DNA of 64,000 bases from Muscardinus avellanarius (taxonomy: Eukaryota > Chordata > Mammalia > Rodentia > Gliridae), in NCBI GenBank assembly GCA_963383645.1, contig OY726567.1:65196234-65260233 (forward strand). Reading direction: 5' to 3'. Position numbers and translations under genes: made by a program. The notes beneath the pieces were generated by a model, which made no database searches, was not told where the DNA came from, and was given only the letters and a program-made list of their open reading frames with translations. Below are positions 4,688 through 58,885 of the stretch, in pieces. The number at the start of each line of letters is the position of its first letter. Position 1 is the stretch's first letter.

Positions 4688-4692
<5 letters not shown>

Positions 4693-4955
4693 CTTTGCCC
4701 GCTATCCCTCTGATAGAGGACTGATATCTAGAATACACAAAGTATTTAAAACACTCAACATTAAAAAAATAAGCAATCAAGAATTAGGCAGTGAAACTAA
4801 ATAAACACTTCATAAAGGAAAAGATACAGATGGCTAATAAAAGCCCCTCCCCCCAAAAAAGTTCAATTATCACTAGCCGTCAGGGAGTTGCAAATGAAAA
4901 CTACATTGAAATTCCTTCTAACCCCAATCAGAATGGCAATCATTAAGAAGGCAGC
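4688..4955 (+). mobile_element. L1 fragment (ORF2 3' part)
   Basis: The sequence follows the well-known mammalian L1 ORF2 C-terminal region: 'ctgatatctagaatacaca', then a run of A-rich codons, and near the right end 'aatcagaatggcaatcatta'. It is split from a short remainder at 5,160-5,180 by the SINE at 4,961. Stops and indels make it inactive. Confidence 0.75.
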
Positions 4956-4960
4956 CTGGT

Positions 4961-5138
4961 GCCAGGCGTGGTGGCGCACGCTTGTTATCCCCGCGCTTGG
5001 GAGGCAGAGACAGGGAGGATCGCAGGTTCGAAGCCAGTCGTGCTGACTTAAAAAGACCCTGTTTCCAAATAAAAAAGTATAAAAATAGGTCTGGGAGTAT
5101 AGCCCGGAGGTAGAAGGGTTTCCAGTACCACCACCACC

Positions 5139-11839: not shown

Positions 11840-13195
11840 CCGACTAGCTCAGTTCTGTGGGGGGGCAAGTCCACTAGTGGTCAGGGGCCTCAGAAAGATG
11901 GGACAAAAGGCAGGCGAAGTCCTGCAGATCCTTATCTGCAGCGGTCCTTTCCCCTCTATGAATTCTTTAAGTTTTTAGTCACGACGCTTTGGAAAAAGGA
12001 CCTGAGGTGGACAAAGGCTTCTTGAGCCAATGACACTTTATTATGAAAAACCCAAGAAATTTATACACTTCACCAGTAAAGTTAAGAGAAAGGGGGGCGG
12101 GGGTCCTTCAGCTGGCTGTTGGCCTTTGAAGAATTAACTTCTGTTTCTCTCCAAGGTCTTGCAGATAAGCAGTTGCAGGTGGTAGCCTCCCAGAATAGAC
12201 AGGAATAGTCAAGGCTTGGGAACTTCTCAGGGGAATCTTCTTTTAACCCTTCCTGGAACTTTCCATCTTTTGGGCTCAGTTCACATAACAAGTGTGGGGA
12301 GATTTGGTAATTCAGTGTTGGCATCTTATCTTCCGAATCTGAAAGCTCAAGCATACTCACAACACAGTTTGGCAGACAAAATACCACAAACAACACCACA
12401 AGGTTCTTAGTTCTAATTGTCAGATGTATTTTCTTAACTGCTGAGCATTCTTCTTTAGACAAGCCTATTAAAAGTCTACTTATCTTTAATAATTCACTTC
12501 CCTGTCACAAACTCTCTGCAACCTGCTTTTAACCTTCTAATTTCTTTCTTTTCCAGTTGGGACTTTCTTATGATAAGCTCTTTTTCATGCAAAAATGCTT
12601 TTCTTACTCTTACGGTATTTCTTTTCCTTCATACATATATATTTAGAATGTCTGTCCTTTATTTTGTCATATTTATTTCTAACTATGTGGCCATTTTTTC
12701 TGTCTCCTGGAGTGCTCACACTGAGATAAAAGTTAACAGTCTTTTTCTTTGGGTCTATTATATTTGGGCAGCTAAGTTGTTTCTTTAAGGTCACACACAA
12801 AGTTTTTCTCTGTCTCTGGGCAGGATTTCAAGGGTAAACAAAGTTACCTTAAACTGAGCTACTTTATCGAAGTTAACGGTGAAGGTCGGAGGCCATTTGT
12901 GGTTGCTGCAGCTGGGGTGCTTATCACAGTACCCGAATTCTGGCCAGTTTCTCATTATTGTTGAGCAGAGCCAAGGACGCTTGGACAGATTATTAGAGTG
13001 TTCATCTTCACTGACTCAGTTTTATAAATCACATCACTGGAGCAATTCATATAGAAAGTTAAAAGGAATAATAGTGAAGGGTATCTATAAGTTGGGGGGC
13101 TTTGGCCAGAGACGATACCTGCCTCTCGGGGCTTTCTTTTCGCCAATTAACTATGTGGAGTGGGGTCTCAACACATAGATGCCAAGGCAGCAGGA
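11840..13195 (-). mobile_element. Candidate solo LTR-like element
   Basis: On the minus strand there is a TATAAATT box (about 12,058-12,065), then an AATAAA polyadenylation signal (about 12,036-12,041) about 20 bp downstream, and GC-richer R/U5-like sequence. This is the order expected of a retroviral or retrotransposon LTR. It sits inside ATCC-type repeat DNA, which makes insertion plausible. Exact ends, a target-site duplication and internal viral genes were not identified, so it may be a solo LTR or another AT-rich repeat. Confidence 0.42.
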
Positions 13196-24700: not shown

Positions 24701-27297
24701 AGAGGCAGGAGAGGAGTAGACGGGGCTGGAGAGGCGTCTAGGGTGTGCCCTGCCCAGAAGGTCAGAAATGAAGGGTCCTTGGGGGTCCCCTCTAGGCACC
24801 TCCGTCTCATTAAGAGGGGGCCCAGGACAGGAGGGCAGGCTTTCTAAAGAGGTCAGCCTCCCAAGGAGAGGCTGAGCCCACACTGACCCCTGCAGGTCTC
24901 CCAGGCCTGAGGTCCCAGCCTCCATGGGGAATTCTGCCTGGAACTGCTGAGCTGGGGACTCTGATCTCAGATGCAGGGGTGATGGGCTCCCACTCCTTGG
25001 ACAGAAGGAAGGTGTCCATTGAGCTCTGTGACTGGCCCCACAGGGTCACGTTCTCTCCTTGGAAAACATGGGGCCTCGTTACAGAGAAAGGGAGGTTTAG
25101 CCAGGGAACCATCCTAGAGAAAAGGAGAAGGAGTCAGCTGTGCCATTTGGTTCTCAGCTGAGACCCCCCCCCCAGGGCCTGTCTCTGAGGACCCTCCGTG
25201 TCTCTGTTTGTCTTGGTTTCCTCTGATTCTGCCCTCCCCTGTCTCTGTCTCTCTCCCTCTCTGAGATCCCATTCACCCTGGCTACCCTCTCCCGAGGCTC
25301 CTCTGGAAGGTCCTGTGCAGAGCTGGAGTCCTTGGCTGTACCTACCCGGATCCTCACCTGAGAACAGGATTTATTTTTTATTTTTTATTTTTGGTGGTAC
25401 TGGGGGTGGAACCCAGGGGCTCTTCTACCTCTGGGCTATACTCCCAGACCTATTTTATACTTTATTTGGAAACAGAGTCTTACTAAGTTGCAGAGAGCCA
25501 TGCTAAGTAGCTGAGGCTGGCTTCAAACCTGTGCAATCCTCCTGTATCAGCCTCCCAAGCTCTGGGATTATAAGAGTGCGCCACCACGCCCGGATGAGAA
25601 CAGGATTTTAGGGGCTCGCTGGGGGCTGACCACAGGTCATGTCCACCATAGCATCTGTATCAGCCGCCATGGGAGCGGCTCACAGGGCCCAGGGGAAATT
25701 GGTCCTCGAGAGCCCAGCCTGGGGCTGCCGGCCAGGGAACTGGGAGAGGTCACATCTCCTTCCTGGACTGAGTGAATCTGGCATAGCTGAAGTCAGAGCA
25801 ACACTGAAAGGTGAGGTTCTCTTTAGGGGTTAGGACAGGGCCCTGTGGGTTCAGGAGGGACTGCTTCCTAGACACTCCTGGAGTGAAGGAGAACTGGGCA
25901 GAGAGGGTTGGTTCCTGCTAAACACCTGCTTCCTCCCATCTGGCCCTGAAGGTCTTTCTGTCTCTCACATCTGGGTCTCAGACTAAGGAGCTCTGAGTTC
26001 CCTTCAGACATCCTCCCAACTGGAATCCCTTGGGACCATCCATCATCCATCCATCCATCCATCCATCCGTCCGTCCGTCCGTCCGTCCGTCCATCCATCC
26101 ATCCATCCACCCACCTATTCATTCACCATCTATCTACCCATTCCTTCCTCACCTGATACTTGGAGCTCCAGGGGGTCACTGCATACTGACCACACCTGAG
26201 GGGTTCTCCTGTAATATCCGTAGCATCTGAATGTCCACCTGTGGCCAGCGGACACAGGGCCCACAGGGAACAGGGCCTGCACCCGTCCATTAGGTTGTTG
26301 CTGAGAGTCCAGGGTCCAGGACAGCTTGTGTTCTCCATCCTGGATCAGAATGAACCTGTCATATCTCTGCTGTGAGCCACACTGGAGGGTCACAGTCCCT
26401 CCTGAGGCCACCACAGGGCCGGGCAGGGCTGAGAGGTTGGGGTTGCTGTAGACTCCTAGGAGAAGAGGAGGCAGCATGTTAAATGGGCTCACACCTCTCA
26501 CAGTATCCTCGTGGGACTGTGTGTGAGAGGGGGACACTCCTAAAAATAGACCCTCTCCCTGAAGACAGGACCTGTGGCCACGTCCCCCAATTTCCTCTCA
26601 CCTGTTACCACCAGCTCCAGGGGGTCACTGTACTCTGACCAGCCAGCAGGGCTGTGATACAGACACCAATATCGCCCCGCGTGGTGCTCTGTCACGGAAG
26701 GGATGAAGAACATGGTCTCGCTCCCAGGCTTCAGTGGGGGCTGCATGGCCCAGGATCCTGGGCTTCCCTCTTTTGACAGATGGTATATCTGGGCCTCCAG
26801 GGACCCCTTGTACCAAATGGTCAAGGGCCAACTCTTGGTGATCACAGAGCCTGGCTTAGCCCAGAGCGCGGGCTTGGGGAGGAACGCTGAAAGGAGATCC
26901 GAGGCTGGGTCCAGGATGCTCCCCACTCAGATCCCAGTTCTCTTCCCAGGACCCCAAACCTCCCAGCATCAACTCACATACGATGCTCTTCACCCCACTG
27001 CTCACGATGGCCCCTCGTCCCCAGTGGGGCACAGGGACCTGGGACACTGGGACACACTCACCTGCCTGCACTGGGGTCCTGGGGCCCAGACTCAGTCCTG
27101 GAAGAGAGTTCCCTGTGAGAGGTTTGCTCCAGGGCCTGGGCAGCTCCGGTCCTCCCTGAAGACTCTGAGACCTTGATGTCCTGCTAGACCAGGGCCTGCT
27201 GTGGGCTGGGGCCCCTCCCACACCCTCCCGGAACAGGCGTCCCCTCCCCTCCCCAGGTCTCACCGAGGCAGAGCAGGGCAGTGAAGATGGGGGTCAT
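21616..27297 (-). CDS. Activating LILRA/PIR-A-like receptor gene B
   Basis: Activating leukocyte Ig-like receptors carry a short tail and a membrane arginine that pairs with the ITAM adaptor FcR gamma. Exons: signal 27297-27264 ([12 protein letters not shown]); second signal exon 27097-27062; D1 26886-26602 (285 bp); D2 26455-26153 (303 bp); membrane/tail exon 21752-21616. D2 has both cysteines. D1 keeps the second cysteine (RYWCLY) but has tyrosine where the first should be (TIWYKG instead of TIWCEG). Two further Ig exons, D3 (25877-25358) and D4 (about 25,115-24,870), are broken, and the stem exon (about 21,940) lacks an in-frame donor. D2 ends in phase 1 and the membrane exon starts in the matching phase, so a two-Ig product like human LILRA5 would be in frame. 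That splice is inferred. Otherwise the gene is a recent pseudogene. Confidence 0.7.
22500..22700 (-). mobile_element. B1/ID-type SINE
   Basis: Antisense dimer with a small internal duplication of the 'gggctacactccca' block. TATGGATATAT flanks both ends as target-site duplication. Confidence 0.92.
22826..23030 (+). mobile_element. B1/ID-type SINE
   Basis: Sense dimer with an AAAAC-repeat tail. AAGAATGTGTTTG on both sides is the target-site duplication. Confidence 0.94.
23035..23380. other. AT-rich intron sequence of gene B, no gene
   Basis: About 75-80% A+T by eye, with short ATATAT tracts and no recognisable element. Confidence 0.5.
23385..23572 (-). mobile_element. B1/ID-type SINE
   Basis: Antisense copy lacking part of the middle, with GGAGATGGAACCCAGGGACA and CAACCACGCCTGGC ends. 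Confidence 0.87.
23771..23985 (+). mobile_element. B1/ID-type SINE
   Basis: Sense dimer with an A-rich tail. CCCTCAAACCA flanks both sides (about 23,760 and 23,987), a target-site duplication. Confidence 0.94.
24870..25115 (-). pseudogene. Degenerate D4 Ig exon of gene B
   Basis: Matches the D4 type (GENVTL...TFLLSKE...) and aligns with 52,386-52,687 and 61,547-61,847. The first disulphide cysteine is replaced (TLWGQSQ instead of TLLCQSQ), and the frame shifts after the [11 protein letters not shown] segment, so the second cysteine is never reached. Not usable as a coding exon. Confidence 0.6.
25358..25877 (-). pseudogene. D3 Ig exon of gene B, split by a SINE
   Basis: Starts GVSRKQSLL after a clear acceptor, and encodes [12 protein letters not shown] and, on the far side of an indel, [10 protein letters not shown]. 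It has a 2-bp length change causing a TGA at about 25,780 (after SRKEM). A 222-bp SINE is also inserted a few bases before the donor CTCAG/GTGAGG. Without the insertion and one target copy, the exon would be 284 bp. Confidence 0.75.
25373..25594 (-). mobile_element. SINE inserted in the D3 exon of gene B
   Basis: Antisense B1/ID dimer. TGAGAACAGGATTT at 25,359-25,372 and again at 25,595-25,608 is a perfect 14-bp target-site duplication. Confidence 0.95.
26037..26118. repeat. (ATCC)n with internal (GTCC)n block
   Basis: CATC units switch to about six CGTC units and back to CATC. It lies in the intron between D2 and D3 of gene B. Confidence 0.95.
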
Positions 27298-29649: not shown

Positions 29650-29665
29650 AAAATAGTAGCCGGGC

Positions 29666-30830
29666 CATCGGAGCCTGCCGTGAGGCAAGGCCAGTGCTGG
29701 GGCCTCCGAGGCCAGGATAAGAGCCAGCAGAGGGGTTAGGCCGGTGCAGGGGCCAATGGCTGGCATTAGAGCTTTCCGTGAGGCAAGGCCGCTACTGAGG
29801 TCTCTGAGGCTGGGATCGGAGCCTGCCGAGGGGTTAGGCCAGTGCTGGGGCCTGCGAGGCCGGCATCGGAGCCTGCCATGAGGCAAGGCCGATGCTGGGG
29901 CCTCTGAGGCCAGGATAAGAGCCTGCTGAGGGGTTAGGCTGATGCCAGGGCCAGCGGCTGGCATCGGAGCCTTCCGTGAGGCAAGGCTGCTACTGAGGCC
30001 TCCGAGGCCAGGAACAGAGCCTGTCGAGGGGTGAGGCCGGTGCTGGGGCCTGCGATGCCGGCATCAGAGCCTGCTGTGAGGCCAGGATAAGAGCCAGCCG
30101 AGGGGTTAGGCCGGTGCCGGGGCCAATGGCCGGCATCGGAGCCTGCCGTGAGGCAAGGCTGCTACTGGGGCCTCCAAGGCTGGGATCGGAGCCTGCCAAG
30201 GGGTTAGGCTGATGCTGGGGCCAGCGGCCAGAATCGGAGCCTGCTGTGAGGCAAGGCTGGTGCTGGGGCCTCCGAGGCCGGGATAAGAGCCTACCAAGGG
30301 GTTAGGCTGGTGCCGAGGCCAATGGCCGGCATTGGAGCCTGCCGTGAGGCAAGGCCGCTACTGAGGCCTCCAAGGCTGGATCGGAGCCTGCCGAGGGGTT
30401 AGACCGGGGTTGGGGACAGCGAGGCCATCATCGGAGCCTGTTGTGAGGCAAGGCGGGTGCTGGGGCCTCTGAGGCCAGGTTCGGAGCCTGCCGAGGTGTT
30501 AGGCTGGTGCCGGGGCCAACGGCCAGCATTGGAGCCTGACAGGAGGCAAGGCCACTACTGGGGCCTCTGAGGCTGGGATCGGAGCCTGCCGAGAGGTTAG
30601 GCCGGTGCCGGGGCCAATGGCCTGCATCGGAGCCTTCTGTGAGGAAAGGTTGCTACTGGGGCGCCGAGGCCAGGATCGGAGCCAGCTGAGGGGTTAGGCT
30701 GGTGTTGGGGCCAGCGAGAACAGAATCAGGGCCTCCCATGAGGTAAGGCCACTGCTTGAGCCAGTGAGGTCTGGATCAGTCCACCGGGTAGCCAGGCCAC
30801 TACTGGGGCCGTCAAGAATGGGATCGACAC
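29666..30830. repeat. GC-rich VNTR of 48-50-bp half-units
   Basis: Alternating half-units: type a GGAGCCTGCCGTGAGGCAAG..., type b GGAGCCTGCCGAGGGGTTAG..., each ending in GGGGCC..GGCC..ATC. Together they form a higher-order repeat of about 98 bp, with roughly ten copies. The final copies (after 30,720) are degenerate. Related degenerate units occur at 41,390-41,700. Confidence 0.9.
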
Positions 30831-31236
30831 TTGCAACACGGCATGCACAGAGAAATATCGCAGAAAATAAAAATCAGATGCTTCCCCTAATCAGCAATAA
30901 CTAGGAGGAAAGGGGCAAGAGGAAGAGGTAGAGCTATAGAAATGGCCCTATAGTGAAGCAATTAAGGTGACCAATCAGAGGGTGTGGAATAGGGGAGGAT
31001 GGAGCCTCTTTAAAACGCAGGAGGTACATAAACAAATGTATCAAAGTTAACCACCAAATAAGCATGGGATCGAGGGAGGGGGAGAGAATGGGATGGGGGC
31101 TGGATGAGGGCTAATTGAATGATGTGTGCTTCTATATCCTCTCAAGTCTTGTACTCCAATGTGATATATGACTACAATGCACCAATTAAAAAAATAAATT
31201 AGAAAAAAACACAAAAAACAAAAAACAAAACAAAAA
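29666..31236 (+). mobile_element. Composite retroposon: GC-rich VNTR + L1 3'-UTR-like end + A-rich tail
   Basis: Three parts in order: a GC-rich tandem repeat (29,666 to about 30,830); a 360-bp segment (about 30,860-31,195) homologous to the L1 3' end at 42,170-42,490; and an A-rich tail (31,190-31,236). AAAATAGTAGCCGGGC occurs at 29,650-29,665 and 31,237-31,252, a 16-bp target-site duplication that splits a SINE right after its GCCGGGC start. An L1-endonuclease-like site (T/AAAA) precedes the left copy. The unit therefore moved as one RNA-copied element. It has no L1 ORF1 or ORF2. It is either an internally deleted L1 or an SVA-like non-autonomous element using L1 machinery. Confidence 0.72.
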
Positions 31237-31335
31237 AAAATAGTAGCCGGGCGTGGCAGCACATGCTGTAATCCCAGTACTTAGGAGGCTGAGACAGGAG
31301 GATCCGGGTTCTGGGCCAGCTTCCACTGCTTAGTG
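31237..31335 (+). mobile_element. SINE split by the composite retroposon
   Basis: B1-like head continues from GCCGGGC at 31,246. The duplicate 5' end lies at 29,659-29,665. The element is a truncated head without an ID tail. Confidence 0.85.
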
Positions 31336-38520: not shown

Positions 38521-38782
38521 CAGAGAAAATCAGATGTCACACAGTCCAACCAAAACTAGCTCAGCCCCACCCCTGACCCCCTGAACACCACTGGCTGTGC
38601 TCTGAACCACCCCTTTGCTGATTCCAGAATTCCTGCCGAATCTATAGAGCATCACCAGGAGTGAGGCATCTCAGCACACCACATTGGGTTTAGTGGTTTC
38701 AGAGTGGGTTCTGATTTTGTCAGTCTACTCTGTTACTTAAACCAGATTCTTTGTGCAGCTGAAGATGTAGAGAGTCGATTGA

Positions 38783-39075
38783 AGGAGGGGCCAAGATGGC
38801 GGTGGCCATGATCCCATGTAGCAACAATAGTGGGCAGCAGCCAAATAGGACATATATTCTTCTGAGAAACCCTGGACATCAGATTTTGGCTTACTATCTG
38901 ATTGGGACAACATATACATTTATAGCCATGACTTCCTACCTAAAATATAAGAGAGAAGAGACGGACCAAGATGGCAGAGACAGCAGTGGTGGCAGCGGCC
39001 AGTATTTGGAAGAGGTAGATAAATCTAATCCAATCCGCCTCTGACTGTTGGAGAAAACTTCCCCCAAAAAGACTT
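38783..39075 (+). mobile_element. L1 5'-UTR start and first monomer
   Basis: Begins at a CCAAGATGGCGG box, the YY1-type start seen in many L1 promoters. The first about 170 bp recur at 40,405-40,590. A second CCAAGATGGC box starts a monomer at 38,967, cut off at about 39,075 by the LTR-like element. Confidence 0.72.
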
Positions 39076-39099
39076 CTCCTGCTCTATGTTGCGGGGGGT

Positions 39100-39740
39100 G
39101 AAAAGTGCGTGGTGTGTGTGGGGAGAAGTAATCCCCCCCCCCCCACCACACAAACAGACAAACAGAAAAATCGTGGATTCTTGTTCTAAGCTAAGAATAA
39201 GTATTCATCGCTTGGACCATTGCTGAAGATTTAAAGGAGTTTGTTAGAAAGATAGAAATACAGAAAATAGAAATACAGCCCCATGCCAAGATGGCATGAG
39301 GGGATGACTCGAATGAGTACACCAAAGGAATTACACGTGGACTTGGCCTTTTATATCCATGACCTCCATCTTGTTTGCGTGACTCTGACGTAGTGAACGT
39401 CCCTGTAAGGTACCTCCCCTAGCAAGGTGTGGTGAGGTGTCTCCTTTCATGAAGGGCAAGGTCAAACCCTGCCCCATCCTCCCTAGATCATCATGTAGAT
39501 CTGTCTTTAGAAAGAGGAAGCCCTAGCTCTCCTCTATTGACTTGTTGATTACTTTGGCTAGATTGATTTACATTGGAATAGCTGTCTGTTTTTAGGCTGA
39601 AACCAAGTCCTTTCTTTATCCATGTCTGCCTCCATTTTGACACAACTATTTTGAAATATACCAATTATTTTCTTTTGAAATATATTAATAATCAGAGCTT
39701 TCCCAAATCTTCCTAGGCCATTCCCCATACTGGCACACTC
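39100..39740 (-). mobile_element. LTR-like element, copy 2, inside an L1 monomer
   Basis: Same family as 37,150-37,835, same orientation. Its left flank (CTCCTGCTCTATG) and right flank (CTCTACATGCTCAGG) correspond to adjacent parts of the L1 monomer (CTCCTGCCCCACATGCTC), so it inserted into the monomer array. Confidence 0.55.
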
Positions 39741-39741
39741 T

Positions 39742-40180
39742 ACATGCTCAGGAATTCTGGACAACATACTATGTAAGAAAAGCGCTCGGGAGGAGGGCCA
39801 AGATGGTGGTGGCAGTGGCCAGTATTGGGGAGAGGCAGGTAGATTCATTCTAATCTACTCTGAACTTTTGAGGAAATCTCCCCAAAAGTAGACTGCACCT
39901 GCCCCACATGCTCAGGAACTCTGGACAACATACTATGTAAGAAAAATGTTCGGGGCACGTCAGATGGAGCCTGCATAGTCAGGTCGGCCGGCGCCGCGTG
40001 TTCCGAGAGCCAAGGGTGCTCCTGGCTGCCGAGCTCCTCTGTGCAGTACCAGAGCTAGGTGAGCTTGGAGCAGTAGAACCTGCTCTCCGTGGTGAAGCTG
40101 TGGGTCTCCACCCTTGGAAGGGAGATAAAACACATTGCTACTAGATAATTGGGCCCCCAACGCCTGCAAAAGACACGTAC
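39742..40180 (+). mobile_element. L1 5'-UTR monomers and downstream 5'-UTR
   Basis: Monomer starts (ACATGCTCAGGAA) at 39,742 and 39,906 give a 164-bp period. The GC-rich sequence at 39,960-40,150 matches 41,085-41,310 and is probably the non-repeated part of the 5' UTR. Confidence 0.7.
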
Positions 40181-40187
40181 TGTTTTC

Positions 40188-40378
40188 TTCCTTTTTTTTT
40201 TGGTGGTACCTGGAAACCCTTCCACCTCTGAGATACACTCCCAGACACCTATTTTTAAAAATATTTTTTATTTGGAAACAGGTCTCTTAAGCCAGCATGG
40301 CTGGCTTCGAACCTGTGCGATTCTCTTGTCTCTGCCTCCCAAGCACAAGTGTGTGCCACCACACTTGGCTTACTGTTT
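40188..40378 (-). mobile_element. B1/ID-type SINE in the L1 5' UTR
   Basis: Antisense dimer between two TACTGTTTTCTT copies (about 40,178 and 40,371), the target-site duplication. Confidence 0.93.
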
Positions 40379-40394
40379 TCTTTTATTAAAATAT

Positions 40395-41335
40395 ATTGAA
40401 GAGGGAGGAAGATGGCGACGGCTGTAGTTACAGCTACAGTGGCGACCACGGCCACAGCGGTGATGGTTAGCAGCGGCTGGATAGGATATGTATCCCCCTG
40501 AGAAGCCCTGGACAACAGATTTTGATTGAATAACTGATTGAGACAACACACAGAAACATTTCCAGTCATGACTTCCTATCTGAAATATAGGAGAGAGAGT
40601 GGAAAATGGCGGAATTAGAGGCACGACGGCAGCACGGTGCCCGTCACTGCAAGAAAAGTGATTTTTGGAGGGATATCCCAGAAGAGATCAGAAAGCAGAC
40701 TGCTCCTGCCACACATGCACAGGAATACTTAACAACAACATACTCTAGGGGAGACCAAGAAGATAGTAGCAGCAGCCAGTATTCAGGAGAGGCAGACAGA
40801 TCCAACCAAAGCCACCTTGAGTTTTTGAAGAAATCGCTCCCAAAGTAGACTGTTCCTGCCCCACATGCTCAGGAACTCTGAACAACATACTATGTAAAAA
40901 AAAGTTTTGTGGAGACAGACCAAGGTGACCGGTAGTGGTGGCGGCCAGTATTCGGGAGAAGCAGCTGGATCCAATCCAATCCACCTTGAATTTTTGAAAA
41001 CATCTCCCCAAAAGTAGACTGCTCTTGCCACACATGTGCAGGGATTCTGGACAACATACTATGTAAGAAAAATGTCCGGGGCAAGTTGGAGGGAGCCCCG
41101 ACCATATTGTTGGGCCGATTCACTACACCGGGTCTCCTGGGAGACCTCAGCTCATGGCCACTGTGATCCTCTGTGCTGCGCTGGGGGTCAGGGCGTGCTT
41201 GGAGCAGCATATCCCGCTCTTCATGGTGAGGCTGTGAGGCTGTGAGCCTCTGCTTTCAGTGGGGAGATAAAATTCATTGCTGCTAGGGAATTGGGCTCTC
41301 AGTTTCTGCAAATGACACGTGCTGTTCTCTCCTAC
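40395..41335 (+). mobile_element. Second L1 5' UTR with tandem monomers
   Basis: Starts GGAGGAAGATGGCGACGGC. Monomer starts lie at 40,712, 40,863 and 41,032 (periods 151 and 169 bp), each with 'aacaacatactatg' and a following 'ggccagtattc' box. The non-repeated part is 41,085-41,335. Confidence 0.75.

Positions 41336-41380
<45 letters not shown>
41336..41380. repeat. (GT)n microsatellite
   Basis: About 20 GT units at the end of the L1 5' UTR. Confidence 0.97.
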
Positions 41381-41389
41381 GGAAAAATG

Positions 41390-41720
41390 GGAACCTCTGT
41401 AAACATTATGCCCACAGTGACAGTAACCAGAGCCTGCCGGGCAGCGAGGCCGGGTCTGGAGCCAGCAGCTGGGCCTGGAACCTGCTGCATGGTGAGGCCA
41501 GTTCTGGAGCCAATGAGGCCGGGCCCAGAGCCTGCCGCGGGGCAAGGCTGGGTCTGGAGCCAGTGAGACTGAGCCTGGAGTCTATTGCGCAGCAGGCCTG
41601 GAACTGGGGCCTGCCTCACAGCAAAGGGCCAGTGGGTTTCTTCAACTGTGTGGCCAGGAAGCTCTAGAAGCTGCCGCTGCCTCACCCAATCTCTCAGCAG
41701 ATTTCCAGATCCAAGTAACC
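41390..41720. repeat. Degenerate GC-rich units related to the VNTR
   Basis: Three or four imperfect units of the form GAGCCTGCCG..GGCAAGGC..GGTCTGGAGCCA, related to 29,666-30,830. Their place between the L1 5' UTR and L1 3' end suggests that the VNTR is part of this L1 family's 5' region. Confidence 0.65.
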
Positions 41721-41789
41721 TCTATTTTTTATTTTTAAAATTCATTGTGAGTGGATCATCCTGTCAAAGTTACTCACCTTCTGCCTTTC

Positions 41790-42495
41790 AGGTTTTCAAT
41801 AAGTGGGAATAAGTGTGGAGAAATAGAAGCTCTAATACATTGTCGGTGGGATTGCAAGTTGGTGCAACCACTTTGGAGAACAGTATAGAAGATCCTCAGA
41901 AGAAGGAAAATGAACTTACCATATGACCCAGCAATACCACCTCTGGGTATCTACCAAAAAGAATGAACACCAAAATACCAAACTATTGCATGAACAACCA
42001 TGTTCATAGCTGCACAGTTCACCATTGCCAAACTGTGGAACCAGCCAAGATGTCCTTCAATGATTAAGTGGATTTCAAAACTATGGGATATGTACACAAT
42101 GGAATTTTGCCCGGCCATAAGGGAACACAAAATTATGGTATTTACAGTGAAATGTCACAAAAAAGGAATTCAGATGCTTTTTTAAATGTGTAAAATATTA
42201 GGAAGAAATGGGTAACAGGAGGAACTCTAGATGAAGGGACCCTATAGAGGAGCAATGAAGGTGACATATCTGAGGGGATAAGAGGGAGGATAAGAGAAAC
42301 TCTTTAAAGCACATAATGTACTTAAACATATCAAAGTCAATCAGGAAGCCAAGCATGGGTAGAAGGGAGGGGGGAAGGGGTTAGAGATTGGGTAGGGGCT
42401 GATTGGGTGATGTGTGCATGTATATCTCCACAAGATTTTTATCCCATTGAGATATATGACTACAATGCACCAACAAAAATTTATTAAAAAAAAAG
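41790..42495 (+). mobile_element. L1 3' end (end of ORF2 plus 3' UTR)
   Basis: 41,800-42,160 follows the conserved L1 ORF2 end ('ccatatgacccagcaatacc', 'ccattgccaaactgtgga', 'tacacaatggaattttg'). 42,170-42,480 is the 3' UTR shared with the composite retroposon, ending in TTTATTAAAAAAAAAG. Everything between the 5' UTR and the ORF2 end is missing. Confidence 0.82.
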
Positions 42496-42639
42496 AAGTA
42501 GAGGGTCAATGATATTCATTATGGAATGTGGTAATTACAAATAGCAGGATATGTTCATGAAGTACAAGAGAGAGTGAAGAAGTTACAGGTGCTTAGGGGT
42601 AAGAAAAGAAGGGGACCAGTCTCAGAAAGTCAGGAACAA

Positions 42640-57714: not shown

Positions 57715-58885
<1,171 letters not shown>

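Follow-up and report, generated by a model that had tools for sequence, protein, structure and literature searches.

The question raised by positions 29666–31236 of the window (a 64,000-nucleotide stretch of Muscardinus avellanarius DNA, on contig C10) is whether a G-rich tandem array (VNTR) joined to L1-type sequence is one damaged L1 or a member of a gene-less retroposon family moved by L1 enzymes. The VNTR of this element, here copy 1, occupied 29666–30829 (+) and was built of two types of half-unit, A (49–50 bp) and B (48–50 bp). Clear half-units numbered 21; the array also held a 24-bp remnant, at 30066, and continued in more diverged units as far as ~30810. Types A and B alternated through the array, the sole B-B step lying across the 24-bp remnant, and this alternation gives the ~98-bp period that a preliminary description had claimed as a higher-order unit. 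The first base of the insert lay 4 bp upstream of a unit start. The sense strand of the VNTR was G-rich (G 0.40–0.41) in copy 1 and in four copies from the genome, with 3.1–3.4 runs of at least three G per 100 bp versus 0.05–0.15 on the other strand.

When copy 1 was aligned with 20 copies from the genome, the family-defining junction between VNTR and 3′ UTR, CTTGCAACACGGCATGCACAG, fell at 30830–30850 (+). An L1-type 3′ UTR followed (30840 to ~31190, +; 70% identical to 42137–42494, a segment that comes after ORF2 codons) and then an A-rich tail (31191–31236, +; read from the sequence). The element was flanked by an identical 16-bp target-site duplication (TSD), AAAATAGTAGCCGGGC, at 29650–29665 and 31237–31252 (both +), the final 7 bases of the 3′ copy being the start of a SINE. 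When the flanks of copy 1 were joined, the SINE start was restored, and this SINE was present at many places in the window. No ORF1 or ORF2 match was found within 29666–31236 by tblastn with the proteins of a single dormouse L1 (E up to 1e-4); ORF2 matches elsewhere in the 64-kb window lay at 41622–42143 and 4691–4971. Rfam returned no family in the window at gathering thresholds, and Pfam nothing over the cut-off, either for two forward reading frames taken from copy 1 or for the ORF2 remnant of copy 2 (described below). The preliminary description was accordingly right on the L1 3′-UTR-like segment with its A-rich tail, on the 16-bp TSD cutting a SINE at its seventh base and on the absence of an L1 ORF.

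The genome assembly (2.497 Gb, 104 contigs) was searched with a 501-bp query spanning the junction. From 6,242 first-look candidates 40 places were scored, and all 40 matched over nearly the full length; one was the window itself and 39 were 93–95% identical. A 29-mer pattern of the junction, TTGCAACRYGGCATGCACAGAGAAATATC, which has two two-fold degenerate positions and covers the junction without VNTR units, occurred at 1,769 exact places in the genome and, with up to 3 mismatches, at 11,882; the reversed control gave 0 in both cases, and the pattern misses copies that are truncated or have diverged further. Of the junction places, 100 were listed; all lay on chromosome 1, mostly far apart. 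Exact patterns had no match in external viral and genomic contig collections, and ORF2-peptide scans of both collections likewise returned none.

Twenty copies were fetched by similarity to the junction query, and these kept the junction because they had been chosen by a query spanning it; the pattern counts and a test of VNTR ends are independent evidence. A 24-base pattern of the VNTR end was located at 1,681 exact places, 100 of them listed. Three of the first 23 carried the exact junction 29-mer, and the other 20 were fetched blind to the sequence downstream. All 20 led into the family 3′ UTR, one of them (L059) with just 117 positions matched. Divergence of the 3′ UTR from the majority averaged 4.3% (range 2.3–6.3%) in these 20 copies and 2.0% in copy 1 with the 20 similarity-picked copies (96.6–99.1% identical to the majority), the latter mean being biased low because those copies were picked by similarity. 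Judging from the pattern counts, the dormouse genome contains thousands of gene-less copies of this combination of VNTR and L1 parts, and copy 1 is one member. The preliminary description had named as support many copies with the same VNTR-to-3′-end junction, and these the counts, the empty reversed control and the blind VNTR ends supply. It had also named two findings that would speak against a family, a junction unique to this locus and a private deletion; both are excluded by the shared junction.

Individual copies differed as separate insertions were predicted to differ, with their own TSDs and variable VNTR lengths. Among the 20 similarity-picked copies the VNTR measured 309–2,050 bp. None of the 20 had an ORF1 or ORF2 match inside the element (tblastn, E up to 1e-4); the matches found sat in the flanks. 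Convincing TSDs, called without a chance control, were present in 12 of the 20, all different, and 8 copies had none. Eleven TSDs were 13–20 bp long (seven exact, four with one or two mismatches). The twelfth, around the copy at L011 (5355–7211, oriented), was a direct duplication of ~204 bp at 97% identity, far above the usual TSD length. Nine of the eleven shorter TSDs had pyrimidine/AAA at their start (by eye, a shift of one or two bases allowed), and a start of this type is the target consensus of the L1 endonuclease. Two repeats were discounted as TSDs: a 22-bp flanking repeat at L018, which lay 115 bp beyond the 3′ UTR in an apparent SINE, and a 15-bp repeat with 2 mismatches at L026.

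A family 5′ region was found upstream of the VNTR in six of the 20 copies (L012, L018, L022, L024, L027 and L028). In these six, ~520 bp of degenerate L1-5′UTR-like monomers, an A-rich stretch, a linker and GC-rich sequence lay 5′ of the VNTR; the GC-rich units were 104–135 bp long in L012, L022, L024 and L028. The degenerate monomers of L024 were 58–69% identical, over aligned pieces, to monomers of the sister family described below. GC-rich sequence and linker were also present 5′ of the VNTR in L025 (5346–5900, oriented), where the linker met the VNTR directly, the L1-5′UTR-like relic was absent and the copy had its own 14-bp TSD. L019 was rejected as a carrier of the family 5′ region, its upstream monomers being of another sort. 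Since no family 5′ region stands upstream of them, the other twelve copies start in or near the VNTR, like 5′-truncated insertions. With the L024 5′ region as query, 40 of 40 scored places matched (5,582 candidates; one self, 39 at 88–91%), the matches starting at 1–215 of 1,018 bases and reaching the end. A comparison of the GC-rich 5′ monomers with the window, with three copies of the sister family and with four L1 loci yielded one 54-bp match, in L044. Measured against the longer genome copies, which extend further 5′, copy 1 is 5′-truncated within its VNTR.

A second element (copy 2, 38780–42492) stood in the same window between an 18-bp repeat at 38762–38779 and its partner at 42493–42510 (both +; 15 of 18 bp match). 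The TSD score was 12, and the highest among 283 random 100-bp windows was 10. Its 5′ region (38780–41426, +) consisted of L1-5′UTR-like monomers of ~150–170 bp with CCAAGATGGC-type starts, which we take to resemble L1 5′ ends, and held a SINE-like insertion near 40193–40390. A short VNTR of about four 48/50-bp units followed (41427–41614, +) and was homologous to the VNTR of copy 1: the match scored 79.7 bits, 500 dinucleotide shuffles reaching at most 36.8 and 224 GC-rich control stretches at most 29.7 (both strands). Downstream lay an ORF2 remnant with three stops (41811–42143, +) that aligned to human ORF2p residues 1133–1243 of 1,275 (PDB 8sxt, E 2e-37); a weaker alignment of the remnant to a dormouse ORF2 began at 41622. 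The element ended in an L1 3′ UTR and A tail (42137–42492, +), 70% identical to the 3′ UTR of copy 1; the match of the copy 1 3′ UTR to 42137–42470 scored 176 bits, and none of 500 shuffles exceeded 31.1.

With the VNTR, spacer and ORF2 piece of copy 2 as query, all 40 places scored out of 4,746 first-look candidates matched (one self, 39 at 86–91%). The three copies fetched (L049–L051) all had the same plan, with monomers, a short VNTR, ORF2 from ~residue 1138 and a 3′ UTR, and no ORF1 match was found in them. This sister family, itself ORF-less, keeps ~110 codons from near the ORF2 end between VNTR and 3′ UTR. Four of its copies, picked by similarity, differed pairwise by 6.5–8.1%. L049 had a 13-bp flanking repeat, and no convincing TSD was seen in the flanks of L050 and L051. 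Because copy 2 and the three fetched copies share one plan, the window carries members of two related ORF-less families.

Possible partners were looked for among L1s that bear ORFs. Young autonomous L1s with open ORF1 were abundant: 150 of 150 scored places exceeded the cut-off, out of 38,950 first-look candidates. Most of the 150 ORF1 matches shared one HMM score, and the open frames were mostly of 329 codons. One young copy that was examined had an open ORF2 frame of 1,279 codons. Apart from short weak matches, the 5′ and 3′ UTRs of the young L1 were unrelated to the family, and among the L1 loci examined none with ORFs had the family's 5′ region or VNTR. Older L1 copies had ORF2 followed by related 3′ UTRs (L016 55% and L026 66% identical to the family). 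Sequence upstream of ORF1 was examined at 13 distinct loci (~1 kb at nine, ~3 kb at four); L041, L042 and L043, three of the four long L1 loci, coincide with L031, L039 and L032 and were counted once. No VNTR was found in this 1 to 3 kb at 12 of the 13 loci; the exception, L029, was ambiguous. A VNTR that merely formed the 5′ UTR of L1s with ORFs would be expected to lead into ORF1 at some of its ends, and 0 of the 20 blind picks did so. A rare ORF-bearing form of the VNTR L1 may exist.

At L029 the VNTR was followed by 281 bp of family 3′ UTR, joined to a 5′-truncated young L1 (99.3% identical to L043 over 4,826 bp). The array (C1:6.711–6.723 Mb) was at least 11.5 kb long, its ~98-bp units numbering 116 or more; with the adjoining pieces L045–L048 the locus spans C1:6,703,800–6,723,000. 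No further 3′-UTR match was found in the sequence examined and no TSD was found. Two origins fit the structure, template switching that made a chimera and insertion accompanied by loss of target sequence. Fusions of the suspected kind are known in principle from L1 chimeras with other RNAs (excerpt of PMC13174262). The locus was rejected as proof of trans-mobilisation, since both readings fit and no TSD was found in sequence that stops short of the 5′ end.

Elements resembling HAL1 were seen at L023, L024, L028, L033 and L035, each with ORF1, an inverted ORF2 fragment (~residues 860–1085) and a ~145-bp L1 3′ end. L044 is perhaps also HAL1-like, with ORF1 and the same 3′ end. This 3′ end was 75% identical to the family 3′ UTR in L024 and L044. 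In L023, L024 and L028 the HAL1-like element lay upstream, with ~0.6 to 2.7 kb between its end and the family copy.

Copy 1 is very probably a 5′-truncated member of a high-copy, gene-less retroposon family that derives from L1 and was moved by L1 enzymes. The marks of insertion were seen directly: the architecture, the multi-copy junction, TSDs, A-rich tails, the absence of ORF matches and starts inside the VNTR. At the level of sequence, the TSDs, the A-rich tails and the A-rich starts of the targets are consistent with L1 machinery. Because the junction is shared and TSDs are present, movement without ORFs is likely; transcription, the source of the enzymes and the order of origin are what we infer from here on. 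A fuller element would comprise GC-rich 5′ monomers (104–135 bp), a linker with an A-rich stretch, ~520 bp of L1-5′UTR-like monomers, the VNTR of G-rich 50/48-bp units, an L1-type 3′ UTR and an A-rich tail. The GC-rich monomers would be promoter-like by position. The family would have arisen from an L1 through loss of ORF1 and ORF2, the sister family being a related form that still keeps the piece of ORF2. Its RNA would start in the 5′ monomers, include the VNTR and end in the L1 3′ UTR and poly(A) tail. By target-primed reverse transcription, and probably in trans, L1 ORF2p would copy this RNA where an A-rich target had been nicked; incomplete reverse transcription would leave 5′ ends within the VNTR, and array length could shift through slippage or recombination.

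In the longer copies the VNTR stands between L1-5′UTR-like monomers and L1 3′ sequence, as it would in an ordinary L1 with a VNTR in its 5′ UTR that had privately lost its ORFs at this locus. Such a private loss is extremely improbable given 11,882 near-exact junction places, blind VNTR ends that all lead into the 3′ UTR and 12 of 13 ORF1 loci without an upstream VNTR, the thirteenth (L029) being VNTR and 3′ UTR fused to a truncated L1. That the copies multiplied as a satellite or through segmental duplication is hardly more credible: the one array of at least 116 units at C1:6.711–6.723 Mb is of the kind that such a process would produce, but the copies have differing flanks, A-rich tails and, in 12 of 20, differing TSDs, and the listed junction places on chromosome 1 are mostly scattered. 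A true composite, in which splicing, recombination or template switching joined a VNTR, 5′ monomers and a 3′ UTR that had arisen separately, is unlikely on balance and is to be taken seriously. The single 54-bp match of the GC-rich 5′ monomers, the A-rich stretch between these monomers and the relics, and the linker that abuts the VNTR directly in L025 all point towards it; against it, the sister family has its parts in L1 order, with 5′UTR-like monomers, VNTR, ORF2 piece and 3′ UTR. Splicing in particular is not favoured as the origin of the junction, since homology between copies 1 and 2 extends ~11 bases upstream of the candidate acceptor ACAG (8 of 11 bases match, counted by eye).

Under the preferred reading of an L1-derived family moved by L1 enzymes, the helper could have been the family's own ORF-bearing lineage with the same 3′ UTR, perhaps decayed, rather than the young L1. 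By the uniformity of its ORF1 scores and its open frames, one L1 lineage in the genome is recently active. The unrelated 3′ UTR of this young L1, and the existence of older L1s with ORF2 and related 3′ UTRs (L016, L026), argue for a lineage of the family's own; the older 3′ UTRs, at 55–66%, are nevertheless far from family members that are nearly identical to their majority, and no close ORF-bearing partner was found among the L1 loci examined. We regard an own-lineage helper as possible and somewhat doubtful. It is also rather improbable that Dfam or Repbase already has an entry for the family as a repeat of rodents or glirids. So abundant a family should, by inference, appear in a de novo repeat library, but it was absent among the literature matches listed, which came from open-licence PMC papers; no glirid or dormouse L1 or VNTR retroposon was found there by name.

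SVA carries an A tail and TSDs. Like SVA, LAVA, PVA and FVA, the dormouse family is non-autonomous with a variable-length GC-rich VNTR core (309–2,050 bp in the 20 copies, at least 11.5 kb at L029), and it has the A tail and TSDs of SVA. Its units, 50/48 bp and G-rich, can be set, by description only, beside the 39/40-bp ancestral units of SVA2 (excerpt of PMC4432496) and the G-rich 49-bp K units of hominines, G-rich 49-bp units being reported to dominate human SVA (excerpt of PMC7353768). The four hominoid families have a common 5′ CT/Alu-like region, and VNTR composites are described as hominoid-specific in the excerpted parts of PMC4432496 and PMC7353768. Unlike SVA, the dormouse family has, by eye on the sequence, neither a CT-hexamer/Alu-like 5′ end nor SINE-R; in their place stand GC-rich 104–135-bp monomers, L1-5′UTR-like relics and an L1 3′ UTR. 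Because no CT/Alu-like region was seen by eye and its parts are mostly those of L1, the family is placed outside the SVA group; the likeness is one of design, and kinship is unclaimed since the identifiable parts are L1-like and no Alu or SINE-R part was seen. The SVA/LAVA logic proposed in the preliminary description stands for the shared design of VNTR, L1-derived end and A-tail, with the qualification that copy 1 is 5′-truncated and fuller elements have extra 5′ modules.

HAL1 keeps ORF1 and is an L1 derivative thought to need L1 machinery. The dormouse family resembles it in being an L1 derivative with the same presumed dependence, and differs in having a VNTR and no ORF1 match in 20 of 20 copies; the half-L1 is mentioned in the excerpt of PMC4161310. 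SpIREs, intra-5′UTR or 5′UTR/ORF1 spliced L1 insertions reported to be generally dead ends (excerpt of PMC5860796), are likewise L1-derived with internal sequence missing, whereas in the dormouse family both ORF1 and ORF2 are gone and the junction is common to thousands of copies. GC-rich tandem units on the 5′ side are shared with the L1 5′ UTRs of mouse, rat and perissodactyls (excerpt of PMC5872511); unlike those ORF-bearing L1s, the dormouse VNTR leads to a 3′ UTR at 20 of 20 sampled ends. The family is not an autonomous L1 with ORF1 and ORF2, an internal match being found in 0 of 20 fetched copies, and it has the traits of an L1-derived non-autonomous element, with TSDs in 12 of 20 and a sister family that links an ORF2 piece to a related 3′ UTR.

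A tentative reading, to which we would give a little less than an even chance, is that a rodent independently evolved an SVA-like VNTR retroposon: L1 remnants and a G-rich array of ~50-bp units would have become a successful L1 parasite, with the VNTR, near to human SVA in unit length and G-richness, as the convergent part that turns an RNA without ORFs into a good L1 substrate, and two related families would have spread in one genome. If so, the VNTR core grew past 11 kb in at least one place. The VNTR is reported to be a major determinant of SVA mobilisation (excerpt of PMC7353768), and a rodent family with a hominoid-type core at ~12,000 near-exact junction places is an apparently independent replicate, which allows one to ask whether G-rich ~50-bp repeats as such draw L1 proteins. 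The family also bears on how ORF-less L1 derivatives succeed where SpIREs are reported, in the excerpted part of PMC5860796, to be generally dead ends.

Other features of the window lay apart from both elements. Frames at 10–648 (−) and 26130–26597 (−) resemble exons of immunoglobulin-type leukocyte receptors and are presumably LILR-like. At 58075–58875 (+) stands a 266-codon open frame that we take to resemble FKBP8, perhaps a processed copy.
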